64,000 nt of DNA from Amycolatopsis camponoti (GTDB taxonomy: Bacteria; Actinomycetota; Actinomycetes; Mycobacteriales; Pseudonocardiaceae). The stretch is from assembly GCF_902497555.1 (NCBI RefSeq), contig NZ_CABVGP010000001.1:248001-312000 (forward strand). Reading direction: 5' to 3'. The translations under genes were made by a program, and so were the position numbers. Under the pieces are notes generated by a model. That model was not told the origin of the DNA and did not search any database. It was given only the letters and a program-made list of their open reading frames with translations. Of this stretch, positions 49,074-60,229 are shown piece by piece; the stretch's first letter is position 1; each line of letters opens with the position of its first letter.

Positions 49074-49111
49074 GAGTTGACCGCGTCCCGCGGGGGCGCA
49101 AGGGTGGGCCG

Positions 49112-50071
49112 ATGAGCAGCGACGAGGTTCGCCACGGCGTCAAGCTGAGCAGTCTCGACCAGGAGGTCTTCCCCGGCGCCGGGGTGACCAAGCGGGAGTG
49201 GCTCGACTACCTCGAAGCCGTCGCCGATCCGATGCTCCCCGAACTGCGGGACCGGCTGCTGACCGTGCTGCGGGTCTTGCGCGGCCAGGGGCCGTTCATG
49301 CAGAAGAACCTGCCGAAGTACACGCCGGACTGGGTCGAGCGGGTCAGCGTGTGGGCCGAGACGTCCAAACGGGACGTCTCCTACGCGCTGTGCAACGACC
49401 TCCGCACGCTGATCTGGTTCGGCAACCAGCGGGCGATCGAGTTCCACACGTCCCTCTACCGCGGCGACCCGAGCCACGGCCCGACGCACCTGATCCTCGA
49501 CCTGGACCCGCCGGAGGACGGGGCGTTCTCCCTGGCCATCGGGGCCGCCGGGCTGGTACGCGAGGCGCTGCGCAACGACGGGCTCGACGGCGCCGTGAAG
49601 ACGAGCGGCTCCAAGGGCGTCCACGTCTTCGTGCCGCTCGCGCCGGGGCAGTCGACCGAGGACATCGCGGCCGCCACCCGGGCCGTCGCGGCTCGTGCCG
49701 AGCGCATCGACCCGTCGCTGGGGACGACCGAGTTCGTCAAGGACCGCCGTGCGGGCAAGGTGTTCCTGGATTCCACCCGGGCGGGCGGCGCGACGGTGGT
49801 GTCGGTGTACAGCCCCCGCCACCGCCCGGGCGCACCGGTGTCGTTCCCCGTGCGCTGGGCCGATCTCGACGGGGTCGAGCCGGGGGACTTCACCGTGCAC
49901 ACCGCGCCGGGGTTGCTGGGTGCCGGGCCCGACGCCTGGACCGAGGAGATGCCCGAGCCGTTCGTGCTGCCGGAGGACCTGGTGGCGGAGGGGCACACGA
50001 TCCCGATCGCCCGGGTGGTGGCGATGCACGAGGGCAAGCGCCGGGCCCGGGCCGCTCGCGAGTCCGGCTAA
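49112..50071 (+). CDS. Stand-alone LigD-type polymerase/primase domain protein
   Basis: A 319-residue archaeo-eukaryotic-primase-like polymerase as found in bacterial non-homologous end-joining LigD. HLILDLDPPE holds the catalytic aspartates, KTSGSKGVHVFVPL the conserved SGxKGxH motif, and FVKDRRAGKVFLD the later aspartate. There is no ligase or nuclease domain and no ku gene nearby, so it is one of the separate Prim-PolC/PolD homologues. A role in gap-filling or repair synthesis is expected. Its stop overlaps the convergent gene by four bases. Confidence 0.87.
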   Translation: MSSDEVRHGVKLSSLDQEVFPGAGVTKREWLDYLEAVADPMLPELRDRLLTVLRVLRGQGPFMQKNLPKYTPDWVERVSVWAETSKRDVSYALCNDLRTLIWFGNQRAIEFHTSLYRGDPSHGPTHLILDLDPPEDGAFSLAIGAAGLVREALRNDGLDGAVKTSGSKGVHVFVPLAPGQSTEDIAAATRAVAARAERIDPSLGTTEFVKDRRAGKVFLDSTRAGGATVVSVYSPRHRPGAPVSFPVRWADLDGVEPGDFTVHTAPGLLGAGPDAWTEEMPEPFVLPEDLVAEGHTIPIARVVAMHEGKRRARAARESG

Positions 50072-50907: not shown

Positions 50908-51870
50908 GTGGAACAGGCTTTCTGGGTTCAAAGCCCCGGCGAAGGCGCCCTCCGCCCGGTGACCCTGCGTGAGCCGGAACCCGGCGAAGTCCTCGTCCGC
51001 ACGCTCTTCTCCGGCGTCTCCCGCGGCACCGAAACCCTGGTCTTCCGCGGCGGCGTCCCGGCGAACCAGCACGACGTCATGCGCGCGCCGTTCCAGGAGG
51101 GCGAGTTCCCCGGCCCGGTCAAGTACGGCTACCTCAACGTCGGTGTCGTCGAGCGGGGTCCGGACGACCTCGAGGGCAAGACGGTCTTCTGCCTCTACCC
51201 GCACCAGACCGCGTACGTCGTCCCCGCGAGCGCCGTGACGCCGGTGCCGGACGCCGTTCCGCCCGGCCGCGCGATCCTCGCCGGGACCGTCGAGACCGCG
51301 GTCAACGCCGTCTGGGACGCGCAGCCGAAGCTCGGCGACCGGATCGCGGTGATCGGCGCCGGCATGGTCGGCTGCAGCGTCGCCAAGCTGCTGCAGGGCT
51401 TCCCGGCCACGCGCGTGCAGCTGATCGACGTCGACCCTTCGCGGGCCGGGATCGCCGACGCCCTCGGGGTCGACTTCTCGACGCCGGAAGCCGCGAAAGA
51501 CGGCTGTGACCTGGTCGTGCACGCGAGCGCGTCCGAAGCGGGGCTCGCGAAGGCGCTGGAGCTTCTCGCGCCGGAAGGGACGGTCGTCGAGCTGTCCTGG
51601 TACGGCGACCGCCGGGTGAGCGTGCCGCTCGGGGAGAACTTCCATTCGCGACGTCTGACGATCCGCAGCAGCCAGGTCGGGACGGTCGCGCGGCCCGACC
51701 GGGACTACGCCCAGCGGCTCGGCCTCGCCCTCGAGCTGCTCGCCGATCCGGCCTTCGAAGCACTGGTCAGCGGCGAGTGCGTGTTTGAAGATCTTCCGTC
51801 CGTGTTACCCAGGTTGGCCACGAATGAACTTTCCGCCCTCTGCCTCCGTGTCATGTATCAGCCGCAGTGA
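50908..51870 (+). CDS. MDR dehydrogenase without zinc sites, first gene of the pterin-like operon
   Basis: A 320-residue medium-chain dehydrogenase-like protein. The nucleotide-binding loop [15 protein letters not shown] is clear, but the catalytic zinc residues are absent: the usual GxCxxD is [15 protein letters not shown], as in the BchC-like branch, and there is no four-cysteine structural site. It probably reduces or oxidises an intermediate, using NAD(P) without zinc. GTG at 50908 has GGGAGAACAC before it. Thirty-one bases separate it from the PTPS homologue, and all following junctions overlap. Confidence 0.83.
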
Positions 51871-51901
51871 CCACGTCCACCCGAACGCATCGGAGGTCTT
51901 G

Positions 51902-52300
51902 GTGTTCAGCATCACCGTCCGTGACCACGTGATGGTCGCCCACAGCTTCCGCGGAGAAGTCTTCGGACCCGCGCAACGCCTGCACGGCGCGACCTTCGTG
52001 GTGGATGCGACCTTCCGCCGCGCCGAGCTCGACGAGGACAACATCGTCGTCGACATCGGCAAGGCCACGGAAGAGCTCGGGGCGGTGCTGAGCGACCTGA
52101 ACTACCGCAACCTCGACGACGAGCCGGAGTTCAAGGGCATCAACACCTCCACCGAGTTCCTCGCGAAGGTCGTCGCCGACCGCCTCGCCGACGCCGTCCA
52201 CGCCGGACGCCTCGGCGAAGGCGCGCGCGGCCTCGAAGGCATCGCCGTCTCGCTGAAGGAATCGCACGTCGCCTGGGCGAGTTACGAGCGTGCGCTGTGA
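51902..52300 (+). CDS. PTPS/QueD homologue with altered active site
   Basis: A 132-residue T-fold protein of the 6-pyruvoyl-tetrahydropterin synthase family. Of the three zinc histidines only H14 (VAHSF) and H28 (RLHGA) remain; the third is Ala30, the catalytic cysteine position is Ala24, and the Asp-His pair is missing from [11 protein letters not shown]. The pterin-anchoring glutamate E120 (LKESHVAW) is kept. This is the pattern described for the Streptomyces coelicolor homologue SCO6650, which binds a pterin-like ligand but has no PTPS activity. GTG at 51902 has CGGAGG upstream. It likely does a new reaction on a pterin- or pyrimidine-like compound. Confidence 0.87.
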
Positions 52301-53364
52301 ACAGCCTCTACGTGATCCTCCCCGGGGACGTCGACGACGCGTCCGTCCCGAGTGGAGGCAACACCTACGACCGCCGGATGTGCGACCGGCTCGCCGACGC
52401 CGGCCTCGACGTCCACGAGATCGCCGTCTCCGGCTCCTGGCCGCGCCCGGACACCGAGGCCCGCGCGGTCCTCGGTCACCTGCTCTCCGCGCTGCCCACC
52501 GGGTCCGCGGTGCTGCTCGACGGGCTGGTCGCCTGTGGCGTGCCCGAGGTCGTCGTCCCGCAGGCGCGCCGGCTGTCGCTCTCGGTGCTGGTGCACCTGC
52601 CGCTGGCCGACGAGACCGGCCTGCCGCCCGCGCTGGCCGCCGAGCTCGACGCCCTCGAGCGCGAAACGCTGCGGGCCGCGAGCTCGGTCGTCGCGACCAG
52701 CGAGTGGGCCGCGCGCCGGCTGGTGAGCCACCACGGTCTCGCCCCGCACCGCGTGCACGCCGTGCCGCCCGGCGTCGACCCGGCACCGCCGGCCATCGGC
52801 ACCGACGGCATGTCCCGCCTGGTCTGCGTGGCCAACGTGACCCCGCGCAAGGGCCAGGGCGTGCTCGCCCAGGCCCTGGAAACCGTCGCCGACCTGCGCT
52901 GGACCTGCGAATGCGTCGGCGGGATCCGGCGCGAGACGAAGTACGTCGAGCGGCTGCGCGAGCACCGGCTCGGCGCCCGCTTCACCCTCACCGGCCCCCG
53001 CACCGGCGCGGCGCTGGCCGCGACCTACCACTCCGCCGACCTGCTCGTGCTGCCCTCGCGCGGCGAGACGTTCGGCATGGTCGTCACCGAGGCCCTCGCC
53101 CGGGGCGTGCCGGTGCTGACCACCGACGTCGACGCGCTGCCCGACACCGTCGGCGTCGCGCCGGACGGCTCGGTGCCCGGGATGCTCGTGCCCGGCGACG
53201 ACGTCGAAGCGCTCGGCGCCGCCCTGCGCCGCTGGCTCACCGAGCCGGAGCTGCGGACGCGGCTGCGCGCCTCGGCGAAGCTGCGCCGCGAGACCCTGAC
53301 CGGCTGGGACGCCACCGCCCGCCGGATCGCCGAAGTCCTGCAGCGGCAGGAGGCGGCGGCATGA
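52297..53364 (+). CDS. GT4-family glycosyltransferase of the pterin-like operon
   Basis: A 355-residue GT-B fold enzyme. The donor-binding C-terminal half shows [18 protein letters not shown] and the EX7E motif in [13 protein letters not shown] (E257, E265), so it should be an active retaining glycosyltransferase. The N-terminal half begins [14 protein letters not shown], with [13 protein letters not shown] in the acceptor side. GTG overlaps the PTPS-homologue stop (GTGA). A paralogue lies at 59153-60229. It probably attaches a sugar to the operon's product. Confidence 0.88.
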
Positions 53365-54239
53365 GTGAGCTTGCGAGCGAATCAGTCAGCACTGCGCGTA
53401 GCGGCAGCGTAGCGGCCGCGTTCGCCCCGGACTGGCTGTACCTGCGGGAACCCGCCGACGCCGCGGCCCGCGCCACCGAACTCGTCGACGAGCTGCGTGA
53501 CCACCTGCCGGACGGCGGCTTGGTCATCCGCGACCTCGGCTGCGGCACCGGCTCGCTCGGCCGCTGGCTGGCCGCGCGCCTGCCCGGCCCCCAGCGCTGG
53601 ATCCTGCACGACGAGGACGCCGACCTGCTCACCCGCGCCCGCACCTCCCTGCCGTCCACCGCGCTGGCCGGCAGCCCCGTCGACGTCGTCACCGAGCAGC
53701 AGGACGTCACCGCGCTGCGCGCCGCCGACCTCGCCGGGACGTCGCTGGTCACCGCGTCCGCCCTGCTCGATCTGCTGACCGAAGCCGAGGTCACGGCGCT
53801 GGCCAGGGCGATCGTCGAGGCGGGCTGTGCGGCGCTGCTGATGCTTTCGGTCACCGGCCGGGTGGAACTGTCGCCCGCCGACCCGCTCGACGCCGCCCTC
53901 TCGTCCTCCTTCAACGCCCACCAGCGCCGGCTCACCGGCGGCCGGCGGCTGCTCGGCCCCACCGCGGTGGACGTCGCGGCGACCGCGTTCGGCCGGCTCG
54001 GCGCCACGGTCGTGCGCGCCGAGAGCGCCTGGCGGCTCGGGCCCGACCAAGCCGAACTACAGCGGCAGTGGCTCGAGGGGTGGGTCGGCGCCGCCGTCGA
54101 GCAGCTGCCGGAGCTGCGCCCCGCCGCCGACGTCTACCTGCAGCGCCGGCTCGAGATGGCCGAGGCCGGCGAGCTGCACGCGGTGATCCACCACGGCGAC
54201 CTGCTGGTCCTGCCGCCGAGCCTGGAGGTGGCGGCGTGA
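53361..54239 (+). CDS. SAM-dependent methyltransferase of the pterin-like operon
   Basis: A 292-residue class I methyltransferase. The SAM motif I is [17 protein letters not shown], with the acidic residue HDEDADLL at the end of strand 2 and [13 protein letters not shown] as motif III region. ATG at 53361 overlaps the glycosyltransferase stop (ATGA). The C-terminal half has [17 protein letters not shown] and ends near the next start. It presumably methylates the glycosylated intermediate or its ring, but the order is not known. Confidence 0.86.
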
Positions 54240-55255
54240 AACGCGCACTGGCCTGGCTGCGGATCTTCGGCGCTTTCGCCATCCTCGGCGTCCTCGTCTG
54301 GCAGCTCGGCAGCGACGCCTTCCTCGACGGCCTCGGCCGGATCAACCCGCCCGGCGTGCTCGCCGCCCTGGTCATCGGCTTCGCGACGACGTTGTTCAGC
54401 GCCGGTCGCTGGCAGATCGTCGCCACCCGGCTCGGCCTGCGGCTTTCCCTGCGGACCGCGGTCGCCGACTACTACCGCGCGCTGTTCCTCAACGGCGTGC
54501 TGCCCGCGGGCGTCCTCGGCGACGTCCACCGCGCGGTGCAGCACGGCCGCGACTCCGGCGACGTGCCGCGCGGCGTGCGCGCCGTCGTCCTGGAGCGCAC
54601 CGCCGGCCAGCTCGTGCTGATCGCGTCCGCGGTCGCCGTCGTGCTGGTGTCGCCGGACGTCGTGCCCGGCGCGTTCCGCGAGGTCGTGACGATCACCGGG
54701 GTGGTCGTCGTGCTGGCCGCGGTCGCCGCGATCGTCGCCGGGCGCGTGTTCGGCGGACGCTGGATCCACAGCCCGTCGAAGGTCCGGCGTGGCTTCGCCG
54801 TCACGCTCGCCGACCTGCGGCTCGGCCTGTTCACCCGGGAGACCTGGCCCGGCGTGGGCTTCCTGTCGGTCGCGACGCTGGCCGGGCACCTGGCGCTGTT
54901 CGTCGTCGCCGCCCGCGTCGCCGGCGTGGGCGCGCCGGTCGGGCAGCTCGTGCCGCTGATGATCCTCGCGCTGCTCGCGATGGGTCTCCCGCTCAACGTC
55001 GGCGGCTTCGGCCCGCGCGAGGGCGTCTGCGCCCTGCTCTTCGGCGCGGCCGGTCTGGGCGCCGCCCAAGGTGTCACCGTCGCTGTGGTCTACGGCGTGC
55101 TCACGCTCGTCGCGAGCCTGCCCGGCGCCGGTGTCCTGCTCGTCCGGAGCGTCGCCGGGTTCCGCGTGACCCGCGCTCCGCACACCGGTGTCGCGCTCGC
55201 CCCGCGCATGGCGGCCGGCACCGGGATCGAATCGGAAGTGGGGTTCAAGTCATGA
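54236..55255 (+). CDS. UPF0104-type (lysylphosphatidylglycerol synthase TM-like) membrane protein
   Basis: A 339-residue protein with about eight membrane spans. [38 protein letters not shown] and the late [21 protein letters not shown] are conserved elements of the UPF0104/AglD-like group. Such proteins are thought to move or modify lipid-linked compounds. In this operon it may flip or export the final product. GTG overlaps the methyltransferase stop (GTGA), and its own stop overlaps the cyclohydrolase ATG. Confidence 0.83.
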
Positions 55256-55911
55256 CCGCGAGCGACGTCAGTGATCTTGCGGGGGGTCTGCCGCACCGGC
55301 CCGTGGTCGAGCGGGTCGTCGACACCCGGCTGCCGACCCGGCACGGGACCTTCCGCGCGGTCGGCTACCTCGACCGCGCCGGGACCGAGCAGGTCGCGCT
55401 GGTCCACGGCGAGATCAGCGAGCTGGGCACGCTGACCCGCGTGCACAGCGAATGCCTGACCGGCGACGTCCTCGCCTCGACGCACTGCGAATGCGGCGAG
55501 CAGCTGGCGGCGGCGCTGGACCGGATCGTCGAAGAGGGCTCGGGCGTGCTGGTCTACGTCCGGGGCCACGAGGGCCGCGGCATCGGCCTGCTCGCGAAGC
55601 TCAAGGCGATGCGGCTGCAGGACGAGGGTCTCGACACGGTCGACGCGAACGTGGCGCTCGGCCTGCCGGTCGACGCCCGCGACTACCACGCGGCGGCGGG
55701 CATCCTGCAGGACCTGGGGGTCCGGTCGGTGCGGCTGCTGTCGAACAACCCGAGCAAGGTCGAACAGCTCACGCGCTACGGAATCCGGATCAGCGAGCAG
55801 GTTCCGCTGCTGGTTCCGCCGAATCCCGAGAGCCTGCGGTACTTGCGGACCAAGGCGGAACGGATGGACCACCTGCTCCCGCACCTGGGCCAGGCGTTCT
55901 CAGGCGCCTAG
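55252..55911 (+). CDS. GTP cyclohydrolase II homologue with Tyr-to-Met change (formyl-pyrimidine type)
   Basis: A 219-residue RibA-type enzyme. Zinc cysteines C68, C79 and C81 (HSECLTGDV...HCECG), the phosphate loop [10 protein letters not shown] and the LSNNPSKVE part are intact. The residue matching E. coli Tyr105 is Met120 in KLKAMRLQD. In the S. coelicolor paralogue SCO6655 this same Met120 makes the enzyme stop at the formylated pyrimidine (FAPy) rather than releasing formate, as remembered from published work. So the product should be 2-amino-5-formylamino-6-ribosylamino-pyrimidinone phosphate. It ends the operon and is not the housekeeping riboflavin gene. Confidence 0.88.
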
Positions 55912-56598
55912 CACCTCGAGCACGCCGGCGAAGCGCTGGACCAGCGTGTCCAGCACGACGTGGCCCTTCGCGGCGGTCGCCAGCGAAGGACGGCCGACCA
56001 CCCCCGACTCCGTGTAGGGCCGCAGGCCCAGCGTCAGCAGGTGCTCCCGGTCGGTGACGTGGTCGGCCGTCTCGTGGCCGGGCCGCACGAGGTGCGGGTG
56101 CGCGTGCAGCAGGATCGAGGTCTCCAGCTCGCCGGCGTGCATGTCGTCGTCCAGCGACGTCCGGAGGCCGGCCGCGGTGTGCGCGGCCTGCCAGTCCGCG
56201 ACGCCGGGGAACAACGCCATCGCACCGGCGGCCTCTTGGACCACATTGGACAGTACGTAGTTGCCGCCGTGCCCGTTGACCAGGACGAGCCGCCCGACCC
56301 CGGACGCCTTCAGTGACGCGGCGACATCGGTGATCACCGCGTGCAACGTTCGCGCGGAGATGCTCACCGTGCCGGTCCACGCCGCGTGCTCGTGCGAGCA
56401 CGAGATCGTGATCGGCGGCAGGTGGAGCACGGGGTAGGCGCCGGCGACGGCCTTCGCGAGGGTCGCCGCGATGACCGTGTCGGTCGCCAGGGGCAGGTGC
56501 GCGCCGTGCTGCTCGAAGCTGCCGACCGGCAGCACCGCGACCGCCGCGCCCCGCTGCTGCTCGTCGGCCGTGGTCGAGAGCGGGAAGAGATCGGTCAC
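55900..56598 (-). CDS. Creatininase-family amidohydrolase (possible FAPy deformylase)
   Basis: A 232-residue creatininase-superfamily protein. The metal-binding pattern [15 protein letters not shown] (E, H and D), the loop VNGHGGN and [15 protein letters not shown] are conserved. The family includes creatininase, the mycofactocin peptidase MftE and the archaeal ArfB, which removes formate from FAPy. Beside a cyclohydrolase predicted to leave the formyl group, an ArfB-like step is a sensible hypothesis. The gene is convergent, overlapping the cyclohydrolase end by 12 bases, so it is controlled separately. Start GTG at 56598. Confidence 0.86.
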
Positions 56599-56627
56599 GG
56601 GTACGTCCCTTCACTAGGTTGGAAGTC

Positions 56628-57428
56628 ATGAGCGAGCATGCCGCACTACTCGACGTCGCGCGCGAAGCCGTGGCGAAGGCGACGGAGATCGTCCGGTCGC
56701 GCCCGACTTTTTCCGTTTCCGCGAAAGGTGATCGCGACCTGGTGACCGACGTCGACACGGCGGTCGAGGACGCGCTGCGGGAGTTCCTCACGGCCGAGAC
56801 GCCGGAGATCGGCGTCCTGGGCGAGGAGCGCGGCCGCAGCGGCGACGGCAGCGGCCGCTGGTGGGCGCTCGACCCGATCGACGGCACCGCGAACTTCGCC
56901 CGCGGAATTCCGCTCTGCGGGATTTCCCTGGCCCTGGTGGACGGCGAGCACAGCACGGTCGCCGCGATCGCCCTGCCGTACCTCGGTGTCACGTACACCG
57001 CTTCGCGCGGCGAAGGTGCTTTCGCGAACGGAGAGCGCGTCGGCGCGTCCGTCGCGACGGAAATGTCGGACGCCATGATCGCCGTCGGTGACTTCGCGAT
57101 CGGCCGTCTGGCGGAACAGAAGAACGCGACGCGCCTGCGGCTGCTGTCCGACCTCGGCGCGCGGGCGCAGAAGATCCGGATGCTCGGCACTGCGGCGATC
57201 GACCTCGCCTGGGTGGCGGACGGAAAGCTCGACGCCGCACTGATCCTGTCCAACAACCCGTGGGACACCATGGCCGGTGTGCTGCTCGTGCGCGAGGCCG
57301 GCGGGGCCGTCGTGGACCGCGACGGCAGCGAGCACACGGTCGGTTCGTCGTCGACGATCGCCGTCGGTGCCGGTCTGCGCAAAGAGATTCTGGACGCACT
57401 TGATCGGGCGTACGGGGTTGTTCGTTAG
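56628..57428 (+). CDS. Inositol monophosphatase-family phosphatase
   Basis: A 266-residue Mg-dependent sugar-phosphate or histidinol-phosphate phosphatase. Metal residues lie in LGEERG, ALDPIDGTANF and NNPWDTMAG. A TAGGTT -10 box (56615-56620) ends seven bases before the ATG at 56628, so the message is leaderless. In this neighbourhood it could remove the ribosyl phosphate of a FAPy-derived intermediate; it may equally be histidinol phosphatase (HisN). The choice cannot be made from sequence alone. Confidence 0.85.
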   Translation: MSEHAALLDVAREAVAKATEIVRSRPTFSVSAKGDRDLVTDVDTAVEDALREFLTAETPEIGVLGEERGRSGDGSGRWWALDPIDGTANFARGIPLCGISLALVDGEHSTVAAIALPYLGVTYTASRGEGAFANGERVGASVATEMSDAMIAVGDFAIGRLAEQKNATRLRLLSDLGARAQKIRMLGTAAIDLAWVADGKLDAALILSNNPWDTMAGVLLVREAGGAVVDRDGSEHTVGSSSTIAVGAGLRKEILDALDRAYGVVR

Positions 57429-57565
57429 GATTCCGGGTACCCCGTGGGCAGCGCCACAGCGCGCGATTGCGCTGTCCGTCCGAGGTTTTCGGTTACGTTG
57501 GTACCGGCCGGCGGATGATCCTGGCATGCTGGCCGGATCTCGCAGGCACGTACGGAGAATGGTGG

Positions 57566-59050
57566 ATGCTCGTGGAAAGTCGCCGGATCCGCGATCGGTA
57601 CCGGCTGCTCGAGCCGATCGGCGGCGGGGCGATGGGCACGGTGTGGCGGGCCCAGGACGAAATGCTCGGCCGCACCGTGGCGATCAAGGAACTCCTGCTG
57701 CCGCACGACCACGACGAGCACCGCACCGAAGAGGCGAAGAACCGCGCGATGCGCGAGGCGCGGATCGCCGCCCGGCTGCAGCATTCCCACGCGATCACGG
57801 TGTTCGCCGTCCTCGAGGAAGAGGACCGGCCGTGGTTGATCATGGAGTACCTGCCGTCGAAGAGCTTCGCCGTGCTGATCGGCGAGGAACCGGCCTCGGT
57901 CGACGACGCCATCCGCGTCGGCGCGCAGATCAGCTCGGCGCTGGCCGGCGCGCACCGCGCCGGGATCGTGCACCGCGACGTGAAGCCGGCCAACATCCTG
58001 GTCTCCGACGACGGCACGGCGAAGATCACCGACTTCGGCATCTCCCGCGCGATCGGTGACGTCAAGCTGACGGCGACCGGCGAGATCGCCGGCACGCCCG
58101 CGTACCTCGCGCCCGAGGTGGCCCGCGGCGAGGACGCGGACTTCGCCGCCGACGTCTTCTCGCTCGGCGCCACGCTCTACGCCGCCGTAGAGGGCCAGCC
58201 GCCGTACGGCACGGCGGACAACCCGATCGCCTTGCTCTACAAGGCCTCCAGCGGGGAGATCGAGCCGCCCACCAAGGCGGAGCGGCTGACCCCGCTGCTG
58301 CTGCGGATGCTCGCGACCGATCCGGCCGAGCGGCCGTCGATGGACGAGGTGGAGCAGGAGCTGCGAGCGCTGCTGACGGACGCGGAGCCGGGCGAGTCGG
58401 TCCTCGCGGCGACGGTCCCCGAGGCCGAGGTCGCCGACGTGCCGGCCGCGGTGCCGACCGTCCCGGCCACCGTCGCCGTACCGCCGGCCGGCGAAGTCGC
58501 CACCGTGTCGCCGGGCGCGCGCAAGGGCATGATCGCGGTCGGGGCGGGCGCGGCGCTGCTGTGCGTCGCGGTCGTCGTCGCGATCCTGCTGGTCGTGCGG
58601 CAGAAAGCGCCGACGGACACCGCGGCCCCGCCGCCCGCGACGCAGCCGTCGACCTCGGCGTCCGTGACACCTCCGCCATCGGCGTCACCTTCGCCGTCGC
58701 CTTCCCCGACCCCGTCGACCACGGCGCCCTCCACTTCGACGCCGGTCTCGCCGGTGTCCTCGACGACGAGCGCCGCGGACGCGCTCTCGGCCTACTACCG
58801 GCTGTTGCCCGGCAACCTGCCGGCGGCGTGGAACCTCCTGACGGACAACTTCAAGGCTTCCCGGCACCAGACGTACGACACGTACAAGAGCTTCTGGAGC
58901 CGGTACAAGTCGGTGAACGCGACCAACGTGAAGGAAGCCGGCCCCGGCAGGGTGACCGCGACCGTCCTTTACGACGGTGGCAAGGCCGAGACCGACACCT
59001 TCACGATGGTCCAGGTGAAGGGCGTTTGGATGATTGACTCCCAAGGCTGA
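57566..59050 (+). CDS. Transmembrane Ser/Thr protein kinase
   Basis: A 494-residue Hanks-type kinase: glycine loop PIGGGAMGTVWRAQD, VAIKELLLP lysine, catalytic HRDVKPAN (D138), DFGIS and APE are intact. A Pro-rich juxtamembrane part leads to one membrane span at about 320-343, a Ser/Thr/Pro-rich linker and an outer domain of about 90 residues (YYRLLPGNLPAAWNLL...) of the NTF2/SnoaL-like sort seen in other actinomycete kinases. ATG at 57566 with GGAG eight bases upstream is chosen; earlier in-frame starts exist (57467, 57515). Its signal is unknown. Confidence 0.9.
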   Translation: MLVESRRIRDRYRLLEPIGGGAMGTVWRAQDEMLGRTVAIKELLLPHDHDEHRTEEAKNRAMREARIAARLQHSHAITVFAVLEEEDRPWLIMEYLPSKSFAVLIGEEPASVDDAIRVGAQISSALAGAHRAGIVHRDVKPANILVSDDGTAKITDFGISRAIGDVKLTATGEIAGTPAYLAPEVARGEDADFAADVFSLGATLYAAVEGQPPYGTADNPIALLYKASSGEIEPPTKAERLTPLLLRMLATDPAERPSMDEVEQELRALLTDAEPGESVLAATVPEAEVADVPAAVPTVPATVAVPPAGEVATVSPGARKGMIAVGAGAALLCVAVVVAILLVVRQKAPTDTAAPPPATQPSTSASVTPPPSASPSPSPSPTPSTTAPSTSTPVSPVSSTTSAADALSAYYRLLPGNLPAAWNLLTDNFKASRHQTYDTYKSFWSRYKSVNATNVKEAGPGRVTATVLYDGGKAETDTFTMVQVKGVWMIDSQG

Positions 59051-59117
59051 ACCGTCTCGCCTCCGGCCGCGTGTGACAGATGAGCCGTCATCGTCGTCGA
59101 CCGCGCCGGAGGTAGCC

Positions 59118-59156
59118 GTGTCCCGTCCCACCGTCCTGCCCCGGCCCGCGCGATGA
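59118..59156 (+). CDS. 12-codon leader peptide overlapping the GT4 paralogue start
   Basis: GTG at 59118 follows a strong GGAGGT and encodes VSRPTVLPRPAR before TGA at 59154-59156. The TGA overlaps the next ATG (59153) as ATGA, and the glycosyltransferase itself lacks a ribosome site. This layout means translation of the glycosyltransferase probably depends on the leader. Four prolines and three arginines in twelve codons could make it sensitive to charging or ribosome stalling. Confidence 0.45.
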   Translation: MSRPTVLPRPAR

Positions 59157-60229
59157 GGCCCGCCGACCCGATGGTGTTCATCCTCCCGGCCGCACCGCCG
59201 GGGAGCGACACGTACGACAAGCGCATGTGCCAGAACCTGCCCGCCGTCGGGCAGCCGGTGCTGGAGCTGCCGATGGCCGGCGACTGGCCCGAGCCCGACG
59301 CGACGTCCCGGCGTCGCCTGGCCAGATCCCTGGCCGCCCTGCCGGACCGGACGGTGGTGCTGCTCGACGGCGTGATCGCGTCGGGCGTGCCCGAGATCGT
59401 CGTGCCGCACGCGCGCCGGCTGCGGCTGGCCGTGCTGGTGCACCAGGCCCTGGCCGACGAGCCCGGCCTCGACCCGTCACACGCGGCGGAGCTGGACGCG
59501 TGCGAGCGCGAGACGCTGCGGATGGCCGGGATGGTCGTCGCGACGAGCCCGTGGCTCGCCCGCCTGCTGATCGACCGCCACGACCTGGACCCGGGCCGCG
59601 TCTACGTGGCCAAGCCGGGCACGGACGCGGCGCCGCTCGCCGCGGGCGCGGACGGCGTCTCCCGGCTGTTGTGCGTCGGCGACGTCAGCCGCCGCAACGG
59701 CCAGGACCTGCTGGTCCAGGCCCTCGGCGAGGTGGATCACCTCGCGCTGTCCTGCGTCATGGCCGGCTCGCTGGAGGCCGACCGGGGTTACGTCGACGAG
59801 CTCGGCTGGTCCATCGAACGGCTCGGCCTCGGCGGCCGCATAACGTTGGCGGGCGACGCGGTCGACCTCAACGCGGCGTACAACGCGGCGGATTTGCTGG
59901 TGATCCCGGCCCGCGCGGCGACGTCCGGCATGTTCGTAGCGCAGGCACTGGCCCGCGGCATCCCGGTACTGGCCACCGAGGTCGGCGGGGTGTACGACGC
60001 ACTGGGCGTGGATGCCGACGGCGAGATGCCGGGGTTGCTGGTGCCACCGAACGACCCGTTCGCGCTGGCGGACGCGCTGCACCGCTGGTACGCGGACCCG
60101 GAGCTGCGCCGGTCTTTGAGAACGGCGGCACTGGGCCGGGGAAGCGCACTGGAGGAGTGGGAGTCCGCGGCCCGGCGTCTGACGCAGGCGCTGTCGAAGT
60201 TGGCTTCCGAGCCCCGCATCGTCGCCTGA
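59153..60229 (+). CDS. GT4-family glycosyltransferase paralogue with degenerate EX7E motif
   Basis: A 358-residue GT-B protein clearly related to the operon glycosyltransferase (shared LDGVIASGVPEIVVPHARRL, LVHQALADEPGLDP, ERETLRMAG, LLCVGDVSRRNGQDLLVQAL). The active-site segment [13 protein letters not shown] of the sister protein is RAATSGMFVAQAL here, so both glutamates are replaced, by Ala256 and Gln264. It is therefore probably inactive or a regulatory partner. ATG at 59153 is coupled to a 12-codon leader. A long hairpin terminator follows. Confidence 0.85.
   Translation: MRPADPMVFILPAAPPGSDTYDKRMCQNLPAVGQPVLELPMAGDWPEPDATSRRRLARSLAALPDRTVVLLDGVIASGVPEIVVPHARRLRLAVLVHQALADEPGLDPSHAAELDACERETLRMAGMVVATSPWLARLLIDRHDLDPGRVYVAKPGTDAAPLAAGADGVSRLLCVGDVSRRNGQDLLVQALGEVDHLALSCVMAGSLEADRGYVDELGWSIERLGLGGRITLAGDAVDLNAAYNAADLLVIPARAATSGMFVAQALARGIPVLATEVGGVYDALGVDADGEMPGLLVPPNDPFALADALHRWYADPELRRSLRTAALGRGSALEEWESAARRLTQALSKLASEPRIVA

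Follow-up and report, generated by a model that had tools for sequence, protein, structure and literature searches.

The seven genes at positions 50908–56598 of a 64 kb stretch of DNA from Amycolatopsis camponoti (NZ_CABVGP010000001.1, positions 248,001–312,000; the whole stretch is called the window here) belong to a gene set, including a PTPS homologue, that is kept together across several phyla. The pathway that they encode is real, widespread and largely unexplained. We propose that the locus is a branch off riboflavin-type chemistry, in which GTP cyclohydrolase II (GCH II) and a creatininase-family enzyme would together make a deformylated ribotide that is then diverted; we regard this reading as evenly poised between right and wrong.

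Layout of the cluster

A preliminary description of this DNA had recognized six coupled genes and a converging creatininase-family gene, and open reading frames and Pfam matches placed all seven at the same coordinates. On the forward strand lie genes for a BchC-like MDR dehydrogenase (50908–51870; Pfam ADH_zinc_N 28.5 bits, under the cut-off of 31.8), a PTPS homologue of the PTPS-IV (FGPAQ) type with a GTG start (51902–52300; Pfam PTPS 76.7 bits), a GT4 glycosyltransferase (52297–53364; Pfam and PDB sequence search), a SAM methyltransferase of the Methyltransf_25 family with a DLGCG motif (53361–54239; 30.6 bits), a flippase-like UPF0104/LPG_synthase_TM membrane protein (54236–55255; 106 bits) and a GCH II in which Met120 replaces Tyr (55252–55911; 219 bits). 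The creatininase-family amidohydrolase, a proposed formylaminopyrimidine ribotide deformylase, is encoded on the reverse strand (55900–56598; 207 bits), and its gene overlaps the 3′ end of the GCH II gene convergently by 12 bases. Start and stop codons overlap by 4 bases at the PTPS/GT4, GT4/methyltransferase, methyltransferase/UPF0104 and UPF0104/GCH II junctions, and 31 bases separate the end of the MDR gene from the PTPS start. Divergent from this operon is a gene for a CDP-alcohol phosphatidyltransferase (PF01066; 50068–50829, reverse strand; Pfam 55 bits), which the preliminary description did not include and which belongs to the conserved set.

Conservation of the gene set

We examined PTPS loci in three sets of genomes. 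In an even sample of 396 genomes across the phylum Actinomycetota, 72 gave a PTPS match at E 1e-5, and 60 of these loci were analysed, the 12 weakest matches being left out. The motif FGPAxxxHG was present in 33 of the 60. An MDR gene lay directly upstream of PTPS in all 33 FGPA-type loci and in none of the other 27, and a GT4 gene lay directly downstream in 30 of the 33, the remaining three having a contig end less than 1.4 kb from the PTPS start. The single GT4 gene among the 27 loci without the motif is in L040, a cluster member whose PTPS gene is cut by a contig end. A class-level sample of 394 genomes yielded 57 with a match at E 1e-12; nine overlapped the first set, and the other 48 yielded 49 loci, 48 of them FGPA-type. 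Here and below, MDR and GT4 genes were counted when adjacent to PTPS and the others when found anywhere in the stretch, by models built on window-type proteins that miss distant ones. By this count the 48 loci held MDR in 46, GT4 in 48, UPF0104 in 41, methyltransferase in 39, GCH II in 36, creatininase in 25 and the reductase domain RibD_C in 19. Finally, a PTPS alignment was run against genome_contigs (84,980 species); of 570 confirmed stretches, we analysed the 80 that scored best in a ranking against a Rubrobacteraceae sequence. All 80 were FGPA-type, with MDR adjacent in 75 and GT4 in 76, and RibD_C was found in 50, methyltransferase in 46, GCH II and UPF0104 in 42 each, and creatininase in 34. 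The phosphatidyltransferase accompanied 8 of 33, 41 of 48 and 54 of 80 FGPA-type loci in the three sets respectively.

Relatives among these best 80 come from Rubrobacter, from Sphaerobacter and other Chloroflexi (Chloroflexota), and from Halomonas, Vreelandella, Chromohalobacter, Variovorax, Rhodospirillales, Acidobacteria (Acidobacteriota), Gemmatimonadetes and actinomycetes. The arrangement, kept across several phyla, is not due to chance. The preliminary description had suggested looking for co-occurrence among actinomycete genomes; the gene set is indeed kept together there, and beyond the actinomycetes too.

Two observations concern Halomonas-type loci. In L150 the cluster is flanked by genes for a LysR regulator (L150:4206-5180) and an FkbM-type methyltransferase (L150:14336-15118). 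In L168 (Halomonas) most cluster genes are broken into several frames, by sequencing error or decay.

The PTPS-IV homologue

The window PTPS gene is the orthologue of S. coelicolor SCO6650 (PDB 3d7j, E 1.3e-69), and its best match, 98% identical, is from A. pretoriensis. In alignment it carries the FGPAQ signature, reads HGA in place of HGH, retains the conserved Glu near the C terminus, and lacks the Cys, the Asp–His pair and the third zinc His. We assume the usual roles for these residues, on which basis the alignment agrees with the earlier view of a homologue that keeps a pterin-anchoring glutamate without the catalytic residues. None of the PTPS-I/II/III (QueD) motifs, CxxxHGH, CxxxxxHGH or ExxHGH, occurs in the window protein, and CxxxHGH was found in none of the 161 FGPA-type loci of the three sets, as against 26 of the 27 non-FGPA loci of the Actinomycetota set. 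Assignment to PTPS-IV follows from FGPAQ together with the adjoining PF00925 gene in the window; PF01872 occurs in relatives and is absent from the window.

PTPS-IV occurs in two forms, both of which lack the Cys and the Asp–His pair. The HGH form was present in 24 of 33 Actinomycetota-set loci and 10 of the best 80, and the HGA form in 9 of 33, 47 of 48 class-set loci and 70 of the best 80. In Rubrobacteraceae the HGH form accompanies the gene order RibD_C–MDR–PTPS–GT4. A methyltransferase gene comes next in L041, which is of this type, and its frame was matched in 18 of 24 such loci; in Rubrobacteraceae-type loci the phosphatidyltransferase and UPF0104 models, which derive from window-type proteins and overlook distant ones, found no match. 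A PlsC-like acyltransferase gene (L041:4968-6035) and a small gene on the opposite strand (L041:6039-6536) were also observed in L041 and matched in 23 of 24 loci of this type.

GCH II and the creatininase-family enzyme

The window GCH II is a clear family member (PF00925, with HSECLTGD and CEC present). Alignment with E. coli GCH II (PDB 2bz0) puts Met120, the residue singled out in the preliminary description, opposite Tyr105, so that the window enzyme lacks the Tyr of a canonical deformylating GCH II. We take Tyr105 to have a catalytic role; the Glu of HSEC precedes what we take to be the zinc Cys.

We compared 88 cluster-borne GCH II sequences, one per locus and including the window, whose creatininase label was set by hand; L056, L063 and L067 (not PTPS-IV) and L168 (broken frames) were left out. 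Creatininase was present in 45 of the 47 loci in which position 120 is not Tyr, and in all 18 that have Tyr and HSAC. It was present in none of the 21 with Tyr and HSEC, and in neither of the two with Tyr and HSSC (L174 and L188). Thus all 63 creatininase-bearing loci have a GCH II altered at 120 or at HSEC, and all 21 intact at both lack creatininase. As to the two non-Tyr exceptions, the genome of L121 has a creatininase orthologue, 68% identical, some 13–14 kb away, and in L187 the contig ends 2.6 kb past the PTPS start, before the site that the gene occupies in its relatives. A stricter rule, mutual exclusion of Tyr and creatininase, held in Actinomycetota loci and failed in Halomonas.

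Among 12 genomes with Tyr/HSEC clusters, six have, outside the cluster, a weaker creatininase match, 36–39% identical to the window protein (G555, G493, G426, G732, G468, G029), and six have none (G205, G521, G423, G522, G458, G403); G207 has none either. Where the cluster has a creatininase, its copy is the sole creatininase-family match in six of nine genomes (G024, G591, G542 and those of L150, L178 and L216), while G001 has five and the genomes of L162 and L190 two each. The window creatininase matches the pattern E.H..H.P..TD, as do 35 of 64 cluster copies. Its NCBIfam matches all fall under the cut-offs: 129.6 bits to MftE of mycofactocin (cut-off 172), 103 to creatininase and 35 to ArfB (cut-off 180). 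Two creatininase clades are seen; the support, 88/73, is compatible with separate recruitment and with a single origin alike.

Distribution of the RibD_C reductase

MDR is immediately preceded by a gene for a RibD_C protein in all 24 Rubrobacteraceae-type loci. The L041 protein reaches 171 bits against the model of the RibD C terminus, which exceeds the cut-off, and 145 against the model of the archaeal reductase, short of the required 186. RibD_C occurs somewhere in the stretch in 41 of 41 loci with a Tyr-type GCH II. The idea that window-type clusters use a reductase encoded elsewhere was examined with the RibD_C of L104 as query and rejected: the best match in G001 was 36% identical, and none was found at E 1e-8 in G024, G129, G194 or G162. 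The Halomonas genome G753 carries three GCH II and two RibD_C matches in total, among them a RibD_C and a GCH II gene about 1 kb apart on contig C4, separate from the cluster copies.

Close to PTPS-IV in L136 and L139, but on the other strand, are genes for a GCH II and a RibD_C protein, possibly a riboflavin operon beside the cluster. The 21 Tyr/HSEC rows include both loci, although in each genome no other GCH II was found and this one may be the riboflavin gene.

A proposed pathway

The 21 loci with an intact GCH II all lack creatininase and have RibD_C, whose known substrate is deformylated; GCH II and creatininase therefore probably make the normal precursor in two steps. We propose that the Met120 GCH II would open GTP to a formylaminopyrimidine ribotide without deformylating it, and S. 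coelicolor SCO6655 reportedly gives a formylated product. The creatininase-family enzyme would then deformylate the ribotide to 2,5-diamino-6-ribosylamino-4(3H)-pyrimidinone 5′-phosphate. In the relatives that have it, RibD_C would reduce the ribose to ribityl; because the window has no RibD_C gene, this step may be skipped there or borrowed from riboflavin RibD. Downstream, PTPS-IV, with its pterin fold, and the MDR dehydrogenase might build or modify a pterin-like ring, and GT4 and the methyltransferase, judged by family, would add a sugar and a methyl group. More speculatively, the phosphatidyltransferase and the UPF0104 protein might point to an end product bound to the membrane or through a phosphodiester. 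Our best guess at the product is a pterin-like compound that is both glycosylated and methylated. For the family as a whole the front end can be deduced fairly well; for the window's branch the case is weaker.

This recasts what had been proposed, namely that GTP is converted to a formylated pyrimidine that is then glycosylated and methylated: a GTP-derived pathway with glycosyltransferase and methyltransferase genes kept together in many genomes stands, but the formyl group is probably not kept. Formation of the normal riboflavin precursor had been named as a result that would overturn that proposal; the GCH II–creatininase pair probably does form it, and the pathway is not thereby abolished.

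Several findings weigh against our proposal. Among non-Tyr loci, RibD_C is found in four of 47 (L103–L106), its gene is absent from the window, and a search of eight related genomes without a cluster copy turned up no close orthologue at other sites. The contrast with the Tyr-type loci counts against one uniform pathway: either the window's branch lost the reductase step, or it borrows the step, or it does different chemistry. L174 and L188 have HSSC yet no creatininase, and L132, L167 and L216 have creatininase and no GCH II in the stretch. On the GCH II tree there are three creatininase changes and four substitution changes, giving three independent pairs, for which a sign test is not significant; moreover, the two-position rule (120 or HSEC) was adopted after the data were seen, in place of strict Tyr exclusion. 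The window creatininase passes no NCBIfam deformylase model. The sole GCH II found in G423, G632 and G580 lies in the PTPS locus, and the putative steps after deformylation rest on family labels.

A more elaborate version seems to us quite unlikely, and is speculative. The likeness of GT4 to MshA and PimA, with the nearest models of the phosphatidyltransferase, leads to a lipid-linked scheme. The module of GCH II, creatininase and reductase would supply a sugar- or polyol-phosphate pyrimidine, which PTPS-IV and MDR would turn into a pterin; the phosphatidyltransferase would attach this to a lipid in the way that phosphatidylinositol is made, GT4 would add a sugar like PimA, and UPF0104 would move the product across the membrane. 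Such a class of membrane-anchored, glycosylated, methylated (ribosyl- or ribityl-)pterins would be common to Streptomyces, Halomonas, Acidobacteriota and others, and might serve stress or spore physiology.

Alternative readings

The strongest rival, tentative but deserving some weight, is that in window-type clusters the formyl group is kept, the formylated ribotide being the true precursor and the creatininase having an unrelated or later role. This was the earlier view, and the reported product of SCO6655 fits it, as do the rarity in non-Tyr loci of RibD_C, a user of the deformylated product, and the placing of the creatininase gene on the opposite strand. However, the same cluster in relatives uses a Tyr-type GCH II and RibD_C, and creatininase presence tracks GCH II state over the 88 cluster copies. 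Neither GCH II nor creatininase was found in the stretch of L101, L114 or L130, and no creatininase match in G721, G609 or G548 exceeds 37% identity. For deformylation there is also a precedent, in that the creatininase-family protein BrbF of Sinorhizobium has been proven to deformylate this ribotide, as stated in passages of PMC9478397.

Less probable still is that the cluster serves as an additional source of riboflavin (or F420). Riboflavin synthesis employs GCH II, BrbF-like creatininase and RibD_C alike, and the three genomes in which the sole GCH II found lies in the PTPS locus count in favour of this reading. The three GCH II and two RibD_C matches of G753 count against it. To our knowledge GT4, methyltransferase and UPF0104 proteins have no role in riboflavin synthesis, and more than one GCH II match, some of them fragments, was found in 20 of 31 and in 13 of 16 cluster-bearing genomes. 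With respect to F420, a CofD-family match was present in 15 of 21 cluster-bearing genomes and absent from six, in a family that also holds non-F420 proteins. A passage in a 2016 review does assign PTPS-IV to archaeal F420, on unpublished data (PMC5041015). Expression of SCO6655 is anticorrelated with modelled flux at r −0.61 (PMC2853524); the value for SCO2687, another GCH II gene, is −0.52, so this says little.

That the genes have separate functions and stay together by lineage synteny is very improbable, since membership is kept across several phyla while order and strand change, even if several loci are incomplete and gene order varies from family to family.

Other cluster proteins and neighbouring genes

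Motifs were scored in copies above 80 bits, so that some MDR and GT4 copies lie outside clusters; the GT4 pattern used is so loose that it carries no weight. The phosphatidyltransferase signature DxxDG..AR..G...D...D is intact in the window and in all 102 copies scored; its nearest models, weakly, are archaetidylinositol phosphate and phosphatidylinositol phosphate synthases and, in PDB, serine phosphatidyltransferases. GxGxxG is present in 154 of 154 MDR copies and the GHE zinc motif in one; the window MDR has the former without the latter, and its best NCBIfam match, BchC at 48.7 bits, is far under the cut-off of 291. The methyltransferase motif DLGCG was found in 91 of 92 copies. GT4 scores 77 bits to MshA in NCBIfam (cut-off 462), and its solved relatives in the PDB sequence search include MshA and PimA, ranked after an unnamed Tll1590 protein. 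The UPF0104 protein matches the flippase-like domain at 36.6 bits, under 43.2. A sigma-B-like promoter upstream of MDR was considered and rejected, since one of 119 regions has it and plain shuffles gave 0.62.

Downstream of the cluster (56619-60229) the window encodes an inositol-monophosphatase-family protein, a Ser/Thr kinase and another GT4, which shares about half its residues with the cluster GT4; G001 has the same layout. The phosphatase gene, a possible member of the set (56619–57428, forward strand; start perhaps 56625 or 56628; Pfam 186 bits), was matched elsewhere, with a one-sequence model, in L031, L110 and L117 only. The second GT4 (59153–60229, forward strand; Pfam), a possible accessory gene, is 50% identical to the cluster GT4 of L001, and its G001 copy is 97% identical. 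On the other side, the stretch at 49100-50068 has a 93% identical counterpart at the same place in G001 and reads like what we take to be a LigD-type polymerase domain.

Significance and relation to known systems

We know of no product for this gene set. That Rubrobacter, Streptomyces and Halomonas all keep it together points to an overlooked metabolite or cofactor that many bacteria make, and the system offers a direct test of how the second step of a GCH II may pass to a creatininase-family protein. In cyanobacterial tetrahydrobiopterin glycosides, too, a PTPS-fold protein and a glycosyltransferase act on a pterin; the route to those compounds begins with GTP cyclohydrolase I and includes a true PTPS, whereas here there are GCH II and a catalytically altered PTPS.

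Among the closest counterparts is S. coelicolor SCO6650–SCO6655, which are reportedly known as single enzymes only, from work on SCO6655 and SCO6650; the pathway would unite these two. The window PTPS is orthologous to SCO6650, and the Streptomyces order PTPS, GT4, methyltransferase, UPF0104, creatininase, GCH II would fit the six locus tags, of which the 3d7j sequence was the one compared. In second mycelium SCO6652, by position presumably the methyltransferase, is upregulated by log2 4.3 at 48 h and by log2 4.1 at 72 h (PMC3610822). No pathway or product paper for SCO6650–SCO6655 was among the matches listed in our literature search.

The claim that the system is undescribed needs qualification. 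Searches by locus, author, family and PTPS-IV terms found no paper on the wider gene set, but PTPS-IV (COG0720), its FGPAQ signature and its neighbourhood with PF00925 and PF01872 have been in print since 2017 (in portions of PMC5445326). There, by contrast, PF00925 is labelled FolE2/GTP cyclohydrolase I, and the main text contains neither 'creatinin' nor 'Glycos_transf', the two names looked for.

In the BrbF/ArfB route, as set out in sections of PMC9478397, ring opening and deformylation are likewise split over two proteins, and BrbF is annotated as a creatininase; the window creatininase was compared with these through the ArfB model rather than a BrbF sequence. The product of that route goes to riboflavin and its first enzyme is unidentified or a GCH III, whereas here a GCH II and a creatininase-family protein are paired in what would be a branch cluster.

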